24,621 bases of DNA, taken from the IMG/VR virus record IMGVR_UViG_3300017717_000072, positions 1 to 24,621 of that record; one strand, written 5' to 3'. Below the pieces are notes generated by a model, which saw nothing but the letters and a program-made list of their open reading frames with translations, did not search any database and was not told where the DNA came from. The DNA is from a virus. The translations under genes were made by a program, and so were the position numbers. Shown here piece by piece: positions 8,195-24,298 of this stretch; position 1 is the first letter of the stretch; each line of letters starts with the position of its first letter.

Positions 8195-8226
8195 AGAAGA
8201 AAAGGGTGGAGGTGGAGTATCCACCC
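8195..8226 (-). terminator. Rho-independent terminator after the capsid gene
   Basis: On the minus strand a 7-bp stem GGGTGGA/TCCACCC (8226-8220 with 8210-8204) encloses nine bases and is followed by TTTTCTTC. It lies 19 bases past the capsid stop and before the 114-aa gene. The loop contains a second GG.GG/CC.CC option. The short T run suggests partial termination. Confidence 0.75.
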
Positions 8227-8244
8227 TAATCTTCAAGTTTTTAT

Positions 8245-9276
8245 TTAGGCAATATTAGAAATATTACAATGGTACTGAGGAGGACCGAAGTCAAATCCCA
8301 TTTCCATGTAAACTGCTTTGCCCATTCTTGCATTATCACCTTGGTCAAGGTCACGAATAAATACGGTTCCTTTTCCAGGGATATTCAAGAAGATAGGTGT
8401 AACAAACGCCATATCTACGATAAACGCTTTGCCACTAGGTAAGTAATCAGACAATGCTAATCCCATAGCTCCGAATGGAGTTACGATAGTATCAATGTCA
8501 ACCCCTCCAACGTTTCTATCACGTGGAAGAATACCTCCTGTTAAAGCACCTGATACTGTTGGGTTAACAAGTTCTTTGTTAAGGTCCAACAACATGGCAG
8601 GACTAATGAAAAGAACAGGTTCTCTTAATGGAGCGCCTGCATCATATAATTTTTTCATAGCACCTGCTACGGTGTCCCAATGTATTTTTTGGTCTGTTCC
8701 TGAACCGTTACCTGCAGTATCATTGTAATAGATATTGCCACCTGTTAAGTCCATATGAGCGTTAATACCTCTCATTTGTCTATCAGATGATGTTCCGTCA
8801 GAGAACGTTCCATTGAATGCTTGGAACTCTGCTTTTTTAGCGACAAGCTCTAATACCAACTCAAGTTGAGCTGCCATTTCATCATTAATAGGGTTAGTAC
8901 CCTCTAATGCAAGTTTGTCAATACTGTTTTTATAGTTTGCTGCCAAGTCAAATGGCACAATTTCCCCATAAGCTGCTTGAGCAGTAAATGTTACTTGTAC
9001 TGCTTCATGGAATATTTCCAATACACCTTGTGTAGCAGAACGTGAACGACCGTTATAAGTTGGTCCTGCACCTTCTGCGGCAGGTGTTACTGAAGATACA
9101 ACAGCATTATCAACAGATTGGAATTGGAAGAAAGTGCTTTGAATAGCCTTTCCACCAGTTAGTCCACCTGCTGCTGATAATAGAGGAGTTCTATGAGGTG
9201 TAACTTTAAAAAGTTCACCTGTAAAGTTGTTAATCTCAGAAGCTGAGATTGGGCTTGGGGAGCCTATAGCTGCCAC
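8245..9276 (-). CDS. Major capsid protein, HK97-like fold (SU10/DUF5309-type), 343 aa
   Basis: The length is typical of an HK97-fold shell protein without a protease domain. The N-terminal arm (SASEINNFTGELFKVTPHRT, then PLLSAAGG) matches the I..I.P..TPL pattern of the DUF5309/SU10-like capsid family. Central helices (MAAQLELVLELVAKKAEFQA) and C-terminal strands (AMGLALSDYLPSGKAFIVDM) fit the P and A domains. The start is a GTG at 9276-9274, chosen because AGGAGG ends six bases before it and no in-frame ATG is near. The gene looks less AT-biased than its neighbours, as expected for the most highly expressed protein. It follows the scaffold gene by 37 bases and ends at a terminator. Confidence 0.85.
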   Translation of the reverse strand: MAAIGSPSPISASEINNFTGELFKVTPHRTPLLSAAGGLTGGKAIQSTFFQFQSVDNAVVSSVTPAAEGAGPTYNGRSRSATQGVLEIFHEAVQVTFTAQAAYGEIVPFDLAANYKNSIDKLALEGTNPINDEMAAQLELVLELVAKKAEFQAFNGTFSDGTSSDRQMRGINAHMDLTGGNIYYNDTAGNGSGTDQKIHWDTVAGAMKKLYDAGAPLREPVLFISPAMLLDLNKELVNPTVSGALTGGILPRDRNVGGVDIDTIVTPFGAMGLALSDYLPSGKAFIVDMAFVTPIFLNIPGKGTVFIRDLDQGDNARMGKAVYMEMGFDFGPPQYHCNISNIA

Positions 9277-9313: not shown

Positions 9314-9790
9314 TTATTGTTGCTTCTGAGCGTCTAATAAATTTAATTTAGCCCTGATACTGTCTTTTGCGTTACCAGCTTCAGTTACTTTTTTTAAAAG
9401 CTCAGTTGCATCTTGCGGTACAACAGACTGTGAACTTTGTTCAAGTGCTTCTACTCTAGCTCTAGCATCACTCTGAACTACAGTCTCCTGTTCAGATTGT
9501 GGTGTTACCTGTCCAGTTACACCAGTAGCTTCATAGCCATACTCTTGCTTTGCAAAATCTAAAAGTGCTTCGTTGTTTACGTCACCTTTATACACTTGCT
9601 TTAATGCTTTACCAAAACCTGTTGATGGGTCTAAACCAATATCTTTGACAGTACTATCTAATTCTTTTTCGTGATAAGAAGCTAACTTAGCTTCTAAATC
9701 AGCGATAGCATCATCTTTTCTTTTAATGGTTTCACGCATCTGTTTTGCACCTGAATTATCTTCAGTAGCATTATATTCTTGTTCCGTCAT
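9314..9790 (-). CDS. Capsid scaffolding protein, 158 aa
   Basis: This acidic and charged helical protein opens with MTEQEYNATEDNSGAKQM and continues into a coiled coil (ETIKRKDDAIADLEAKLASY). It then has a short conserved-looking helix region (STGFGKALKQVYKGDVNNEA) and a Q/S/E-rich C-terminal half ending LNLLDAQKQQ. Size, composition and position just before the capsid gene are typical of scaffolding proteins, which are removed after assembly. I start it at the ATG at 9790. The open GTG at 9805 would place AGGAGG (9802-9797) inside the gene, whereas from 9790 it sits six bases upstream, an ideal ribosome binding site. The leader before it is highly structured. Confidence 0.8.
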   Translation of the reverse strand: MTEQEYNATEDNSGAKQMRETIKRKDDAIADLEAKLASYHEKELDSTVKDIGLDPSTGFGKALKQVYKGDVNNEALLDFAKQEYGYEATGVTGQVTPQSEQETVVQSDARARVEALEQSSQSVVPQDATELLKKVTEAGNAKDSIRAKLNLLDAQKQQ

Positions 9791-9796
9791 TTCGTA

Positions 9797-9802
9797 CCTC
9801 CT
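9797..9802 (-). promoter_or_regulatory. Perfect Shine-Dalgarno that decides the scaffold start
   Basis: AGGAGG is followed by TACGAA and ATG. It excludes the upstream GTG as start. Three of its bases (A9802, G9801, G9800) belong to GTGAGG at 9805-9800, which is complementary to CCTCAC at 9849-9844 in the structured leader. Confidence 0.8.
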
Positions 9803-9805
9803 CAC

Positions 9806-9978
9806 AGTGTTACTCTTGCAGATAAGCCCTGTGGACGCTTATCGTGAGGCTACAGACCACACTTGACTTTAGATACTGTAGCTCTAACTAAAGTCCTTTA
9901 CTCTACGGTTTTAAGTACAAGATTTCAACGTAGGCATGAAATCCGATTTGCAGGTCATTGAGTGGACCACGCAACACT
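9806..9978 (-). ncRNA. Candidate structured RNA with tandem pseudoknots before scaffold gene
   Basis: The 173 bases between the 318-aa gene and the scaffold ribosome binding site hold no ORF but dense complementarity. The ends pair (AGTGTT 9978-9973 with AACACT 9811-9806). A first hairpin is TTGC/GCAA plus GGTC/GACC (9974-9948). A second is GATTTCA/TGAAATC (9943-9921), and its loop CTACG can pair with CGTAG at 9907-9903. A third is GACTTTAG/CTAAAGTC (9895-9865), and its loop GCTACAG pairs with CTGTAGC at 9855-9849. A final hairpin is GATAAGC/GCTTATC (9843-9821), with loop CCACA complementary to TGTGG at 9861-9857. I count 75 G or C among 173, well above the AT-rich neighbours. I know no matching family. 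It could be a cis-acting leader controlling scaffold and capsid translation or a free RNA. Confidence 0.7.
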
Positions 9979-9987
9979 TATACATAT

Positions 9988-9993
9988 AGTATA
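9988..9993 (-). promoter_or_regulatory. Possible -10 box for the structured RNA
   Basis: TATACT (five of six to consensus) lies just after the stop of the 318-aa gene. A start seven to nine bases downstream would be at about 9981-9979, right at the closing stem of the RNA. No convincing -35 is present, so this is tentative. Confidence 0.35.
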
Positions 9994-9995
9994 CA

Positions 9996-10952
9996 CTATT
10001 CTTCTACAAGTCCAGTTATTTTACCACTTCTTGTTTTTGCAGCACCAACACTAACACCACCTAATTCAGTTTGTGCTTCAGCTTGTACTCTACTTAAACG
10101 TTGACTAGCTTTTACATCACCAATAGCAGCTTCTTCTAATGTAGTAATATCAAGCTCTCTACCTATGTTTTCTGCTAATTCCATTGTTGGTTGTGCAGCT
10201 TCATATAATTGACTAGCTTGTTGTACTGTAAGTCCTGCTTTTTTAAGTTCTTCAAATCTAGCAAAGTTTTGTGTAAACCCTCTAATACTTGCTTGTGCTT
10301 GTAGTTGTAATGTTTGTATATCACCTTTTAATACTTTATCTGATATATCTTCATCAATTAATGCACCAAATACTGTAGGTGCGTCTATATTAATATTGTA
10401 TCTTTCTCTATGTAATCTTTCTACTTCAGGTATTTGGTCTACAACTTGACTATATACTAAGTCAACTCTTTGTTGAAACTCTGCAGCAGAAACTTCTCCA
10501 CTAACTAAATCTTTAAATTTTTGATTAAATTGTTCCGTATCTGTAATACCAACTTCTTGTAATGTTTCTTTATAACTAGCTTTTGTACTTAATGCTTCAC
10601 CTTCAGACATAATTAATGTACCATCTTCTCTTTTAAGATAGCCAAATTCATTTTCCCAAGCAGTTGTAGTTCTTACATCAGCTATAGCTAATTGTGGGTC
10701 AGCATATTTAACCCAAGATTTTGCATACTCTTTTAATACAGCTTCAGGAAAAAAACTAAATAAACTTCTAGCAATAGCCATAGCTGCTTCATTAGTTACA
10801 GAACTACTACTACCATTACTTGTAGTAGAAGTTTGTATACCTAAATTATCTCCTGTGCCAGGTGGATTGTCATATATATATTGACCACCTTCAGGTGCAT
10901 CAGGATTAATTTCTCCTTCAGGTCCTCTTTGTCCAAGTAAGTTATATTTCAT
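9996..10952 (-). CDS. Putative internal virion protein, 318 aa
   Basis: The first 55 residues are Gly/Pro/Ser-rich and disordered (MKYNLLGQRGPEGEINPDAP, later a TSNGSSSS linker). A helical body follows. Residues 60-110 show ARSLFSFFPEAVLKEYAKSW and ADVRTTTAWENEF, a pattern I recall from structural proteins of actinophage-like genomes. The middle has amphipathic helices (LQLQAQASIRGFTQNFARFE) and the C-terminus is basic and flexible. No catalytic motif is visible. It shares TAATG with the 405-aa gene and is the last gene before the RNA element. Position in an overlapping run between portal and scaffold suggests a head-internal or ejected protein, by inference. Confidence 0.5.
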   Translation of the reverse strand: MKYNLLGQRGPEGEINPDAPEGGQYIYDNPPGTGDNLGIQTSTTSNGSSSSVTNEAAMAIARSLFSFFPEAVLKEYAKSWVKYADPQLAIADVRTTTAWENEFGYLKREDGTLIMSEGEALSTKASYKETLQEVGITDTEQFNQKFKDLVSGEVSAAEFQQRVDLVYSQVVDQIPEVERLHRERYNINIDAPTVFGALIDEDISDKVLKGDIQTLQLQAQASIRGFTQNFARFEELKKAGLTVQQASQLYEAAQPTMELAENIGRELDITTLEEAAIGDVKASQRLSRVQAEAQTELGGVSVGAAKTRSGKITGLVEE

Positions 10953-12169
10953 TAACCCTCCAAATATCCTGCTGATTTAACTACGCCTGTACCAAAAGCA
11001 TCTGCCATATCACTAGCAAAACTATTTACTGTAGTTTGATAACCTCTATCTAAACCTATTTGTCTAAATTTCTGTATAGCTTCTGTTTGATTATTTTCTC
11101 TAACAGCGTTAAGTATTTCAGGGTCATCTTCTGATGCTTGTACACCCCAAATGTTAGATGCTTGTGACACATAATTGTTTACAATGTTTTGCCAAGCTAT
11201 ATCACGGTCATACATACCGTATTGTGCAAAACGTACATCTTTCATTTTTTCAATTAATTTAGTTTCGTATCCACCTATATTACGTAAATTACCTGCTTCT
11301 TCTGCAATAGTAAAGTTTGTATGTAAATGTTTTGGTACATAAGTATCTAACAACTGTTGTACTTTAGTTTCATTAGTTGTAATTTTTGTTGTATCTCCAA
11401 CTGCATTTGCAAAACCTGTATCCATAGTAAATGATGAGTAATCATCTAAAGCTGCATTTAATTGTTGAGATACTTTAGTAGATGTATATTTACCACTTGC
11501 CCATCTTTCTGCAAGATACATAGCACCTTTATCAGATATTACACCACCTAGTTTTTGTGCATCAGATTTAATTGTGTCATAGTATTGAGCTTTTTTATCT
11601 CCATAACCAATAGGGTTAGTAGCTCTTTCTATAGCACCGTTATATTCTTCTTTACTAAGTTGATATTTAGTTAAAAACTCTGCCATTTGTGAAGCGTTTA
11701 ATTCGTAACTTCCTGTTTCAGCAAAGTTTTCTTGCACTATATTTACATATTCACTATCTTTCCACCAATATAATTCATCTGCAATCGTGTTCATATCTTC
11801 AATAAATGATTGCACAGGACTTATATTTTCTAAATCTGTTTTAAGTTCTGTATAGCTACCTGCTGATACTATTTGTCCACTAATACTTAAATTATTAAAG
11901 TTTGTTAAAGATACTTTTGTATTAGGTAATGTATTAATAATTTCTTGTTCTAATGCACCTCTTTGTAATTCTTCATTTATATCTGTTACATTTGATATTT
12001 CATTAGCAGGTACATTCCACAAAAAGAAAGTACCATTAGCATCTTGGTATCCTAAATAATAAACAGTATCTACTCTACTGCCTTCTACTAAATTACCTTC
12101 TTCGTCTTGTTTAGCACCTTCAACTACTATTATCTGTGTACCTTTAGGTCCGTAAGTTATTTCACTCAT
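10952..12169 (-). CDS. Putative internal virion protein, 405 aa
   Basis: I do not recognise a family. The N-terminal 75 residues look like a small beta-domain (GPKGTQIIVVEGAKQDEEGN, then VYYLGYQDANGTFFLWNVP). The remainder is predominantly helical, rich in Q, N, Y and acidic residues, with no membrane segment or metal site. It overlaps the NUDIX-containing gene upstream by ATGA and the 318-aa gene downstream by TAATG, so it is translated as part of one coupled unit. A structural or ejected role is inferred from this context. A soluble enzyme is not excluded, but no active-site pattern was seen. Confidence 0.5.
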   Translation of the reverse strand: MSEITYGPKGTQIIVVEGAKQDEEGNLVEGSRVDTVYYLGYQDANGTFFLWNVPANEISNVTDINEELQRGALEQEIINTLPNTKVSLTNFNNLSISGQIVSAGSYTELKTDLENISPVQSFIEDMNTIADELYWWKDSEYVNIVQENFAETGSYELNASQMAEFLTKYQLSKEEYNGAIERATNPIGYGDKKAQYYDTIKSDAQKLGGVISDKGAMYLAERWASGKYTSTKVSQQLNAALDDYSSFTMDTGFANAVGDTTKITTNETKVQQLLDTYVPKHLHTNFTIAEEAGNLRNIGGYETKLIEKMKDVRFAQYGMYDRDIAWQNIVNNYVSQASNIWGVQASEDDPEILNAVRENNQTEAIQKFRQIGLDRGYQTTVNSFASDMADAFGTGVVKSAGYLEG

Positions 12170-13641
12170 CTATCTAACATCTTTCCTAGCCAACCATACC
12201 CTAAATTATCAAGTTTTTCATACTCTGTTTTTTCAGGCATGTTTTCAACTAACTTTGCAGTTGGGGATATTTTAGCTGTTTCTTGTAAATTAGCTATTAC
12301 TTGGTCTTTGTAACTTTCATTATTTTTAGGTGCTTTATATCCAGGTACAATGTATGGCATTATTGGTTCTAATAATTTTTGTGCAGCAGGTTCTGCTACA
12401 GCATATCCAATTAAACCTAATTCATACATATCTAAATAATTTAAACCACCAATAGCAAGTTTTTTTAATCTGTTTTTTAATACTTGTTTTAATTGGTTAC
12501 CTTTTAATGGTGCATTAGGTGTATCTATAACAATGTCATCAGGTATATTATCTATTGTATCAATTACTTCATCAGGAAACATATCAGCGTTTGATTGTTC
12601 TAATGCTTTTAATGTATCGTCCATTTGTGCTGTAGGGTCTACACCTCTTGATGTGTTTTCATTAAGCCATTCTCTAGCAGACAATGCAACTTCATCTGTA
12701 TCGTCTACAAAAGATTTTGCTACATCTGTTTTAAACTCTGTGTTTATATTATTTATTTGTGAAGATGTCATAGTTTTAGTATCAGTAATATAATCTTTAC
12801 CATACTTTTCTCCATACCATTCTGCTATTTCAGCATCTGTTGTTGCTGCCATATGTTCATCAAATGGTGTAGTTTCTATTGGTCCTTCACCTTCAAATTG
12901 GTCAGGTGGAAAATTTGTTTCAAATTCTGCATCAAATGTATTTCTAATATTTGTATCTTGTGATAAATCAATAGCATTAAAATTATCAGACACTCTTTTT
13001 TTATTAACTTCTACAATAAATTCTTGATTTCGTTTTGTATTTTCTTCTACAATATCAAACAGTTTATTTTTATTAGTATCATTAAAACCTTGTCCTTGCA
13101 AACCATCTTTACCTTTGTAACTATCAAGTATCCATTCTGCATGACCAAATGCTAAATCAATATTTTTGTTTGTAATTTGTTTTATATTTACAAACTTTGC
13201 AGATAATGCGTCATCAGAAGCAATAGGAATAAAATTACTATCTACTACAAATACTTTTCCGTATACATCAACACCTTTACCTGCTCTAGCGTCCCAGTCA
13301 AATCTGTTTAATTTAGGAGATAAATCATAACTATCAACAATATCTGTTGTTTGTAAACCCACTTCTTCTAATGCTTCTCTACCTATAAAGTCTTCAATAG
13401 TATCCATTCCTTCTTCGTAAATACCTCCAGGTAAAGCGTATCCATTTTGATGAGGACCTCTTTTTCTTTGTATTAACAAAACATCAAAATCTTTCATTCC
13501 ATCATTCATTTTAATAATTACTGCATCTCCAGTTATTTGTTTTTTATTAAATTTTTTATAAGTAAAATCATTAGTTACTTCATTAACTTCTGGTGAAAAA
13601 TCAGGATTATAATAAGGGTCTTGTTTAGGGTCACGTGACAT
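12166..13641 (-). CDS. NUDIX hydrolase domain fused to virion-cassette protein, 491 aa
   Basis: Residues 36-175 form a NUDIX domain: strands DAVIIK and FDVLLIQRKRG, then YALPGGIYEEGMD, then REALEEVGL at 88-96, and a closing FGHAEWIL. The catalytic REXXEE core is intact. The loop between GG and RE is one residue longer than the usual GX5EX7REUXEEXGU spacing. NUDIX enzymes cleave nucleoside diphosphates linked to another group, such as NAD, ADP-ribose, dinucleoside polyphosphates or RNA caps. The substrate cannot be told here. Residues 180-380 are acidic and polar, residues 396-430 contain a hydrophobic helix-rich stretch, and the C-terminus is helical. The gene lies in the coupled cassette between portal and scaffold, so the enzyme may be packaged and delivered. 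Confidence 0.8.
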   Translation of the reverse strand: MSRDPKQDPYYNPDFSPEVNEVTNDFTYKKFNKKQITGDAVIIKMNDGMKDFDVLLIQRKRGPHQNGYALPGGIYEEGMDTIEDFIGREALEEVGLQTTDIVDSYDLSPKLNRFDWDARAGKGVDVYGKVFVVDSNFIPIASDDALSAKFVNIKQITNKNIDLAFGHAEWILDSYKGKDGLQGQGFNDTNKNKLFDIVEENTKRNQEFIVEVNKKRVSDNFNAIDLSQDTNIRNTFDAEFETNFPPDQFEGEGPIETTPFDEHMAATTDAEIAEWYGEKYGKDYITDTKTMTSSQINNINTEFKTDVAKSFVDDTDEVALSAREWLNENTSRGVDPTAQMDDTLKALEQSNADMFPDEVIDTIDNIPDDIVIDTPNAPLKGNQLKQVLKNRLKKLAIGGLNYLDMYELGLIGYAVAEPAAQKLLEPIMPYIVPGYKAPKNNESYKDQVIANLQETAKISPTAKLVENMPEKTEYEKLDNLGYGWLGKMLDR

Positions 13642-22415: not shown

Positions 22416-24298
22416 GGTGCGTTATTCATCTCTGTTATATTATAACCACTAAAACTTGGATTGTATTCCATTCCTACCTCTGCTAAGTGTTCTTTTTGAA
22501 CACGTCTAAATACCTTCATAGGAAACCAACCTGCCATAACTATATCAGTTTTATGCTTGTTTCTACTAGAAACAGGTTTACCATCAAAGTACACTAATTG
22601 TCTTTTATAACTATCTATTTTAGCTTGACTTTCCGAATTGCCATAGGGTAAATGAATTTTATTTGCTTCAAATAATTCTGCCATTGCACCTACACCATAT
22701 AGTGGGTCATGTTTATTTTTGCCTGTAAGATGTCCTTGTAACAATATTCCTGTTCTTAATACAAATTCTTTTATATTGTTATCTTGTCTTATAGCAGTTT
22801 GAAATCCATTTTCTTCTATTATCCAATGTGATAAATCATACTTATGAAACCAATCACTAATAATTTGATTAGCAGCTTTAACACCACCACCTTGTTGATT
22901 GTCTATGTCTATAAGATAAAGTTCTGAGTTATAAGTATCTATTCCCCACAATACAGCAGCTTGATAGCCTGATGATGAAGGGTCAAGTCCTGCAACAAGT
23001 TGTAATTGTTTTGGAATATCTCCAACTATTAATTCATTACGTTTACAACTATCAACAGCATCAGGATTAAAAATTTGTGTTCCTTGTACATAGGCTTGAT
23101 TAAAATAAACCATTTCAAATATTTGTCTACCACCTGTAGTTTCAGCAGCTTTCATTCTTGACATCAACCATTTATGTGAACGTTTACTAGACCACAACAT
23201 ACAATCTATATGCATTTCATTTGAGGCTTCAGGTAAATCACATTCTAAATCATGTGCTGTTTCTACAATAGCTTGATACTCATCATTGTTAAGTAGATGA
23301 TGATATAAGTCATCAGGGTGCTGTCTTGAACCAATTACTACTACAGCAGTATGTTCCTCTTTACGAGATGACAAAGTAGTTGTCCACCATTGTCTTGTGT
23401 TTTCTCTTGCACCAGGTTGCATAGTTGTTTGATGGTCTTCAATGTCGTCAGCAATAATAATATCGCAGTCACGAGATAATATCTTTCCACCCTTACCTAC
23501 AGCAACCATAGTAGGTGATTTAATACCAGGTACAGTTCTAGTTCCTACAGTAAATTGATTTGATGCCCACATCTTACCTGAACGATTATCAGGTTTAAAA
23601 TTTTTACCAGGTTCACAAAAATCTTGTTGTAATCTTTCATTACTTTCTAGTTGGTCAAGAACAGCAGACACAGCATTCTTAGCAATATCTTCGTTACCAC
23701 CTACCCACATAATTCTTGTATTAGGGTTTTTACATATTTGATATACAGCAAAGTGTATTAACAATTCTGTTTTACCGTGTCTAGGGGGTGATAGTATTAA
23801 TAGTTCCTCACCATGTTCTATAGAATGTAAAATTTTATTTATCCAGTTTTCATGAAAGTTAGCAGTTTCATACTTCTCTCCTGTTTCAGTAGCAAAGTAT
23901 TTGTTTCTAAATGCAGAGAAATTTTCTAGTGCTGCTTGTGCATCAGTAGATACTTGCCAACCTTCTGCATCTAATTTGTTTTGTAAATCTATTTGGTAAG
24001 CAGCGTTCATTTTAGATATAGTTGCTATTGGGCAACCAATAACTTCTGCTGCCTTAGTAGCTGTTAACTCACTATTCATAACTTTATCTGCTAAACCACT
24101 ATCTACATACTCTTGATAATGTTTACCTTTCATAGGTGTTAACGCTGAGTACTTAGAATTAATAGGTTTATCTTGTTTTTTATTATGTCTATATTCTTTC
24201 ATATACTGTCTACGTTGACATTCTGTAGAACAATACTTTGATTTATTAGCTGTTAATCTTTTTCTACAGTTAGTAGCGTGGCATATCTTCTTAGACAT
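22406..24298 (-). CDS. terL: Terminase large subunit with N-terminal zinc and HTH region, 630 aa
   Basis: This is the packaging motor. The ATPase has Walker A SPPRHGKTE at 170-178, Walker B CDIIIADDIED at 278-288 with the acidic pair D284-D285, and a coupling motif VIGSRQHPDD near 321-330. The nuclease is RNase H-like, with candidate metal ligands D439 (AGLDPSS), E496 (IIEEN) and D585 (HKTDIVMAG). Unusually, the first 130 residues add a zinc knuckle (C6, C11, C23, C27) with a basic stretch and a helix-turn-helix-like segment at 76-104 (ATKAAEVIGCPIATISKM). No separate small terminase gene is seen in the 323 bases upstream. The start ATG at 24298 has a weak AGG ribosome binding site and lies about 32 bases after a predicted transcript start. 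Confidence 0.93.
   Translation of the reverse strand: MSKKICHATNCRKRLTANKSKYCSTECQRRQYMKEYRHNKKQDKPINSKYSALTPMKGKHYQEYVDSGLADKVMNSELTATKAAEVIGCPIATISKMNAAYQIDLQNKLDAEGWQVSTDAQAALENFSAFRNKYFATETGEKYETANFHENWINKILHSIEHGEELLILSPPRHGKTELLIHFAVYQICKNPNTRIMWVGGNEDIAKNAVSAVLDQLESNERLQQDFCEPGKNFKPDNRSGKMWASNQFTVGTRTVPGIKSPTMVAVGKGGKILSRDCDIIIADDIEDHQTTMQPGARENTRQWWTTTLSSRKEEHTAVVVIGSRQHPDDLYHHLLNNDEYQAIVETAHDLECDLPEASNEMHIDCMLWSSKRSHKWLMSRMKAAETTGGRQIFEMVYFNQAYVQGTQIFNPDAVDSCKRNELIVGDIPKQLQLVAGLDPSSSGYQAAVLWGIDTYNSELYLIDIDNQQGGGVKAANQIISDWFHKYDLSHWIIEENGFQTAIRQDNNIKEFVLRTGILLQGHLTGKNKHDPLYGVGAMAELFEANKIHLPYGNSESQAKIDSYKRQLVYFDGKPVSSRNKHKTDIVMAGWFPMKVFRRVQKEHLAEVGMEYNPSFSGYNITEMNNAPWQ

Follow-up and report, generated by a model that had tools for sequence, protein, structure and literature searches.

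Tandem H-type pseudoknots are known from type III antitoxins such as ToxI, from plant-virus 3′ pseudoknot domains and from tmRNA, and HK022 put and the Bacillus EAR RNAs are processive antitermination RNAs. The scaffolding protein of P22 is subject to post-transcriptional autoregulation, and we know of no pseudoknot leader in that phage. In T4, a pseudoknot in the leader of gene 32 nucleates binding of the encoded protein, which shuts down its own translation (PMC535899, PMC3014915). Marine phage RNAs in Rfam include manA, wcaG and PhotoRC-II, which are described with cyanophage metabolic and photosynthesis genes (PMC2864571).

The RNA described here precedes the scaffold-like and major capsid genes of a phage contig (the window, that is, the whole 24,621-nt stretch of IMG/VR record IMGVR_UViG_3300017717_000072 that was analyzed), and the gene 32 operator is its best precedent. 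As in T4 and RB69, the 5′ leader of a phage gene contains H-type pseudoknots (here PK0 to PK3) that lie 5′ of the Shine-Dalgarno sequence (PMC535899, PMC3014915). The gene 32 operator, however, consists of one pseudoknot of ∼28 nt, with an unstructured A+U-rich stretch behind it that covers the ribosome site, whereas three or four pseudoknots fill the scaffold-capsid leader and end at the Shine-Dalgarno sequence; a UUAAA-rich unstructured stretch of the gene 32 type is absent over the ribosome site, where AGGAGGU stands directly 3′ of PK3. The encoded protein represses its own message in gene 32, and such repression is only proposed for the present leader. The likeness to P22 would lie in the scaffold protein as a candidate sensor of its own dosage, a role that we infer for this locus. 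ToxI, the plant-virus 3′ domains and tmRNA resemble the leader in their consecutive pseudoknots but differ in position and partners; near-identical tandem repeats beside a toxin gene, as in ToxI, were not found, the units here being different from one another and their neighbor a scaffold gene. manA, wcaG and PhotoRC-II are also structured marine-phage RNAs, but they are not described with capsid genes, and their covariance models do not match the leader. Rfam 15 covariance models gave no match in the window, none for the element at E up to 10, and none in 14 diverse loci, in line with the claim of an earlier, sequence-only reading that the element lies outside known RNA families, and ARAGORN found no tmRNA or tRNA in the window. 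A search of open-access papers returned no description of the leader RNA, which may be described elsewhere. Structured phage mRNA leaders are a known kind of element; as far as tested, the novelty lies in the array and its target.

Position and fold of the leader RNA

All large genes of the contig lie on the minus strand. A gap at 9806-9995 separates an unassigned ORF at 9996-10952 from the scaffold-like gene, and the SU10-type major capsid gene comes next (Table 1; nucleotide k of the RNA is window position 9981-k, minus strand). The scaffold start is ATG 9790, and the GTG at 9805 given by the ORF lister falls within PK3. The putative name "scaffold" rests on synteny, since a scaffold-like gene lies 5′ of the major capsid gene in relatives and annotated scaffold genes also precede the capsid gene in cultured actinophages with related capsids. 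An AlphaFold model of the protein is helical with low confidence (pLDDT 67), and profile comparison with actinophage scaffolds gave no convincing homology. Elsewhere in the window, a virion-region ORF (12166-13641, minus) carries an N-terminal Nudix-like part (phrog_1198, E 6e-11), which is unusual among structural genes.

Table 1. Coordinates of features at the scaffold-capsid locus (window positions)
Feature	Position	Strand	Details
-10 box	9988..9993	-	TATACT (TATAAT in most relatives); upstream of PK0
Whole structured RNA	9803..9978	-	four consecutive pseudoknots, PK0-PK3; fills predicted 5′ UTR
PK0	9948..9978	-	S1 9978-9975 with 9964-9961; S2 9974-9971 with 9951-9948 and 9968-9965 with 9956-9953
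PK1	9903..9944	-	S1 9944-9937 with 9927-9920; S2 9933-9929 with 9907-9903
PK2	9844..9895	-	S1 9895-9888 with 9872-9865; S2 9882-9876 with 9855-9849
P2b	9862-9860 with 9846-9844	-	small stem around PK2 S2 3′ strand; tentative
PK3	9803..9843	-	S1 9843-9837 with 9827-9821; S2 9833-9829 with 9807-9803; ends at Shine-Dalgarno
Shine-Dalgarno	9797..9802	-	AGGAGG; directly 3′ of PK3; GGAGGU invariant in A1
Scaffold-like gene	9314..9790	-	ATG 9790; adjacent partner of the RNA; named by synteny
Major capsid protein, SU10 type	8245..9276	-	PF17236 E 5e-43; phrog_1328 E 3e-31
Terminator-like hairpin after capsid gene	8195..8227	-	loop with UCCACC, U-rich tail; z -3.4

The sequence-only reading had drawn two consecutive H-type pseudoknots and a third hairpin whose loop paired back to the linker, all enclosed by a terminal pairing. 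The structured RNA before the scaffold gene holds, as does its center: PK1 (a 7-8 bp hairpin whose loop CUACG pairs over 5 bp with CGUAG) and PK2 (an 8-bp stem whose loop GCUACAG pairs over 7 bp with CUGUAGC) are confirmed as drawn, together with the third 7-bp hairpin, GAUAAGC/GCUUAUC. At neither end does the earlier fold hold. Pairing of the third loop to the linker is possible in 35.6% of cells among 53 relatives, below the slid controls, and one of the six pairs of the terminal pairing is broken in 48 of the 53; co-substitutions were found in neither. These two pairings are replaced by PK3, in which the third-hairpin loop CACAG pairs with CUGUG downstream, just 5′ of AGGAGGU, and by PK0 at the 5′ end of the RNA, formed by AGUG:CACU plus GGUC:GACC and UUGC:GCAA. 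The four pseudoknots are consecutive, with PK2 touching PK3 if the tentative P2b is counted, a stem with no double changes in the 53 relatives. PK1 and PK3 have a common geometry, with a first loop of 3 nt, a second of 1 nt and a third of 11-14 nt.

A pseudoknot-chain finder that is blind to relatives gave exactly PK0-PK3 as its optimum for the window, with a score of 55.1 against a mean of 33.0 (sd 6.8) for dinucleotide shuffles, none of 300 scoring as high. Plain minimum-energy folding, a method that cannot represent pseudoknots, is unremarkable for the element (z -0.85). An open frame is present in none of the 53 aligned elements, so the RNA is non-coding, as had been supposed. At 33 unpaired positions, six of them the Shine-Dalgarno sequence, identity is at least 95%, and these invariant unpaired bases suggest a bound partner or tertiary contacts.

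Conservation of the base pairs

Relatives came from five capsid searches of IMG/VR, and many of the several hundred loci returned were overlapping stretches of a shared contig; 169 non-redundant loci remained. Four RNA types were distinguished, namely A/F (window-like), B/C, D, and E. The base pairs of the leader RNA are clearly preserved by evolution. When 53 A/F elements were aligned, 94.3% of cells pair, compared with 31-40% when the 3′ partners are slid, and changes on both sides occur in 27 pairs and 177 cells, compared with 14.2 pairs and 36 cells in shuffles. PK0 is paired in 92% and 98.7% of cells, and relatives exchange AGUG:CACU for AGCG:CGCU or GACG:CGUC and UUGC:GCAA for UUGA:UCAA. 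In PK1 (90% and 100%) CUACG:CGUAG becomes CUGCG:CGCAG, and PK2 (88%) has nine pairs with double changes. PK3 is paired in 100% of cells, with both-side changes in all seven S1 pairs and three of the five S2 pairs, the latter including CUAUG:CAUAG and CACGG:CCGUG.

An all-pairs test (R-scape-like, substitution-shuffled null) found no pair at E<0.05 in the 53 close sequences, which are too alike and vary little per site. A tree-aware test, which counts both sides of named pairs changing on the same branch and so tests pairs but cannot discover them, was significant in four lineages: co-substitutions numbered 41 against 7.0 expected in A/F, 25 against 3.9 in E, 7 against 0.96 in B/C, and 17 against 3.8 in D, with none of 2000 null draws as high in any of the four. 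In PK2 the counts are 7 against 1.8 expected and 7 against 0.34 expected. Lineages B/C, D and E were aligned separately, and an untargeted helix finder ranked the pseudoknot helices among the best-covarying. PK3-S2 in A/F has 48 double-change cells but no same-branch events in the reconstruction, since a single change near the root seems to account for them; this helix is backed independently by B/C, D and E. A bulge in its stem explains the weak score of PK1-S1 in B/C (0.72). For PK1-S2 in lineage E, only about half of the cells pair when the 6-bp version is taken in the column alignment, and we count this helix as unsupported there, with shorter matches visible by eye. Absence of covariation in homologous loci and a conserved peptide, the two outcomes named beforehand as speaking against the element, were both looked for, and the finding stood.

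Occurrence and gene partner

One of the four RNA types precedes the scaffold gene in 342 of the 345 loci in which that gene was located (redundant contigs included), a count made with short sequence motifs per type that registers recognized types and is no independent proof of each fold. The A/F covariance model matches B/C (best E 2e-8), several E-type RNAs (E about 1e-4), and a single outlier in the equivalent gene position; it misses the D type, whose homology we accept on topology and position only. Searched with a DNA pattern for PK0 alone, IMG/VR gave 82 stretches, each with a single match, and in 70 of the 80 examined the capsid gene lies 649-731 nt downstream of the RNA, the other 10 ending first. 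By this RNA-only search, the leader is exclusively linked to scaffold-capsid (70 of 70 testable contigs). Among six whole records searched with the RNA model, four have one match each, and the other two, of E and D type, have none, as expected of an A/F model. At five loci (L035, L037, L189, L347, and L258) the RNA in this gene position is divergent, with PK0 and parts of PK1 retained and the rest different; these are possibly further subtypes. A weak match to the RNA model inside the terminase gene (22469-22597, minus; E 0.0027 in a 49-source search) is probably due to chance.

The compact pseudoknots and conserved loops just 5′ of the Shine-Dalgarno sequence would suit a ligand-binding riboswitch, but the RNA is found before one structural operon only, has no conserved alternative fold that would hide the Shine-Dalgarno sequence and matches no Rfam riboswitch, and we hold this reading to be highly improbable.

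In bacterial genomes, the capsid profile found two contigs, both from one marine Actinomycetota MAG, and the RNAs they carry are of A/F and D type; the RNA model is absent from 41 other genomes of the order of this MAG. Together with the matches to actinophage capsids, these contigs suggest an actinobacterial host (ocean actinobacteria) for these marine phages. Cultured actinophages with related capsids have pre-scaffold gaps of about 40-102 nt and no match to the RNA model, the 258-nt gap of Doucette holds a terminator-like hairpin and not a pseudoknot array, and a nucleotide search of cultured phages gave no match.

In its divergence the RNA keeps closer to the scaffold gene than to either the capsid or the upstream gene. 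RNA distance correlates with scaffold distance (Spearman 0.67, and 0.56 as a partial correlation controlling for the capsid or the upstream gene), and the partial value for the equally adjacent upstream gene is 0.25. This co-divergence favors RNA and scaffold as a unit; since the RNA adjoins the scaffold gene, it may partly be linkage. Among the 169 relatives, RNA type goes with scaffold type and not with capsid type. Identity to B/C is 68-69% for the window capsid and only 27% for the window scaffold, while in L038 and L051 the scaffolds are 51-56% and the capsids 57-58% identical. Sequence comparison suggests recombination between scaffold and capsid.

Transcription signals and proposed function

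The -10 box lies 7-9 nt 5′ of PK0 in nearly all relatives, and a perfect TATAAT is present in 62 of 74 A/F-type sequences, compared with 0.56% of random positions. From this distance and the usual spacing between -10 box and start, which is well established, the transcript is predicted to start at, or a few bases before, PK0, so that the RNA would fill the 5′ UTR of the scaffold-capsid mRNA. At the other end, a ribosome binding site adjoins the element, as had been noted: PK3 ends 0-1 nt from the Shine-Dalgarno sequence in A/F and within about 10 nt in the other types. The Shine-Dalgarno sequence is free in the conserved fold, and no conserved alternative fold that hides it was found, so any switching would have to come from a bound factor. 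The one anti-Shine-Dalgarno pairing seen in the window, CCUCAC with GUGAGG, is perfect there but was rejected as a switch because it is not conserved: only 4-30% of sequences keep four of the six pairs.

A trans-acting or packaged RNA, such as a decoy or an antitoxin built of tandem pseudoknots as in type III toxin-antitoxin systems, would account for the tandem H-type pseudoknots and for the loop geometry that PK1 and PK3 share (3, 1 and about 12 nt). Such an RNA is improbable, as the window has no terminator 5′ of the Shine-Dalgarno sequence, the units are not repeats, the RNA is always with the scaffold gene, and there is no Rfam match. A terminator-like hairpin follows the capsid gene in 98 of 131 relatives compared with 1.8% of random stretches. 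Given the -10 box before PK0, PK3 at the Shine-Dalgarno sequence and this hairpin, the scaffold-capsid pair looks like its own transcription unit of promoter, pseudoknot leader, scaffold, capsid and hairpin. The hairpin stem is strongly variable with compensation (AGGGTGGA/TCCACCCT, TGGGGGGAA/TTCCTCCCA, AAACACCGCTAT/ATAGCGGTGTTT), its loop has UCCACC in 109 of 131 relatives, and a U-run does not always come after it; it may serve as a terminator and also as a second RNA element or a protein site. The same hairpin, with an RNA that begins at the predicted transcript start, would fit processive antitermination, in which the nascent RNA makes the polymerase read through the post-capsid terminator. 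This is unlikely, however, in that antitermination does not need PK3 to end at the Shine-Dalgarno sequence, and the likeness to put and EAR is positional only, with no Rfam sequence match.

As its base pairs are preserved, the leader very probably governs the amounts of scaffold and shell protein, and judged by its position it is cis-acting. Of the functions that the sequence-only reading had left open, cis-acting translation control is best backed by position, and a packaged RNA or a ribozyme has no positive evidence. Taken as a whole, a cis-acting translational leader of the scaffold-capsid mRNA with probable autogenous control is the reading toward which we lean; about half of that confidence extends to the scaffold protein as effector. 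In its favor are the conserved fold, the -10 box at a fixed distance, PK3 at the Shine-Dalgarno sequence, the exclusive linkage and the co-divergence, and we also count for it the 33 near-invariant unpaired positions, which exceed the needs of a plain stability hairpin. Against it, the scaffold protein has no match to an RNA-binding domain in a domain search, there is no conserved fold that hides the Shine-Dalgarno sequence, and a constitutive leader or an antitermination element would agree equally well with position and promoter.

The main rival is a constitutive armor and ribosome-loading leader, in which the 5′ end is protected from nucleases and the Shine-Dalgarno sequence is kept open with no regulator. 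The predicted start at PK0, the free Shine-Dalgarno sequence with no conserved sequestering alternative, and the abundance of the capsid as a product all speak for it. We nevertheless find it doubtful, since the many invariant unpaired nucleotides and the retention of three pseudoknots through deep divergence go beyond what a stability element needs, and the co-divergence with the scaffold also counts against it.

For the translational leader with autogenous control, we infer the start site, the translational effect, the binding of a protein and the identity of that protein. Transcription from the dedicated promoter would begin at or a few bases before PK0, and the leader would fold into three or four pseudoknots that bury the 5′ end as a shield and display an open Shine-Dalgarno sequence right behind PK3. 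The leader would thus set the translation, and probably also the lifetime, of the scaffold and capsid message. The array would most likely also be an operator, where a phage protein, with free scaffold as the first candidate, binds close to PK3 and keeps the 30S subunit from loading, which would hold scaffold and shell production in proportion. That the tandem array senses free scaffold or another assembly protein and couples capsid synthesis to procapsid assembly, as a new RNA class, is a tentative proposal; if true, a large group of ocean phages would provide the first case of a capsid operon with a multi-pseudoknot operator.

The leader constitutes a well-supported RNA family that had not been catalogued before. 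Its fold and gene partner are defined and its natural variants number well over a hundred, which makes the balance of scaffold and shell in dsDNA phages directly testable by compensatory mutants. A leader this compact, placed before the most abundant of the structural genes in marine phages, would also be a useful model for pseudoknot arrays in bacterial mRNA. In E-type loci (L061, L075, L079, and others), the palindrome TTGTTTAAACAA and close variants stand just upstream of the -35 region of the promoter, where they are possibly an operator.
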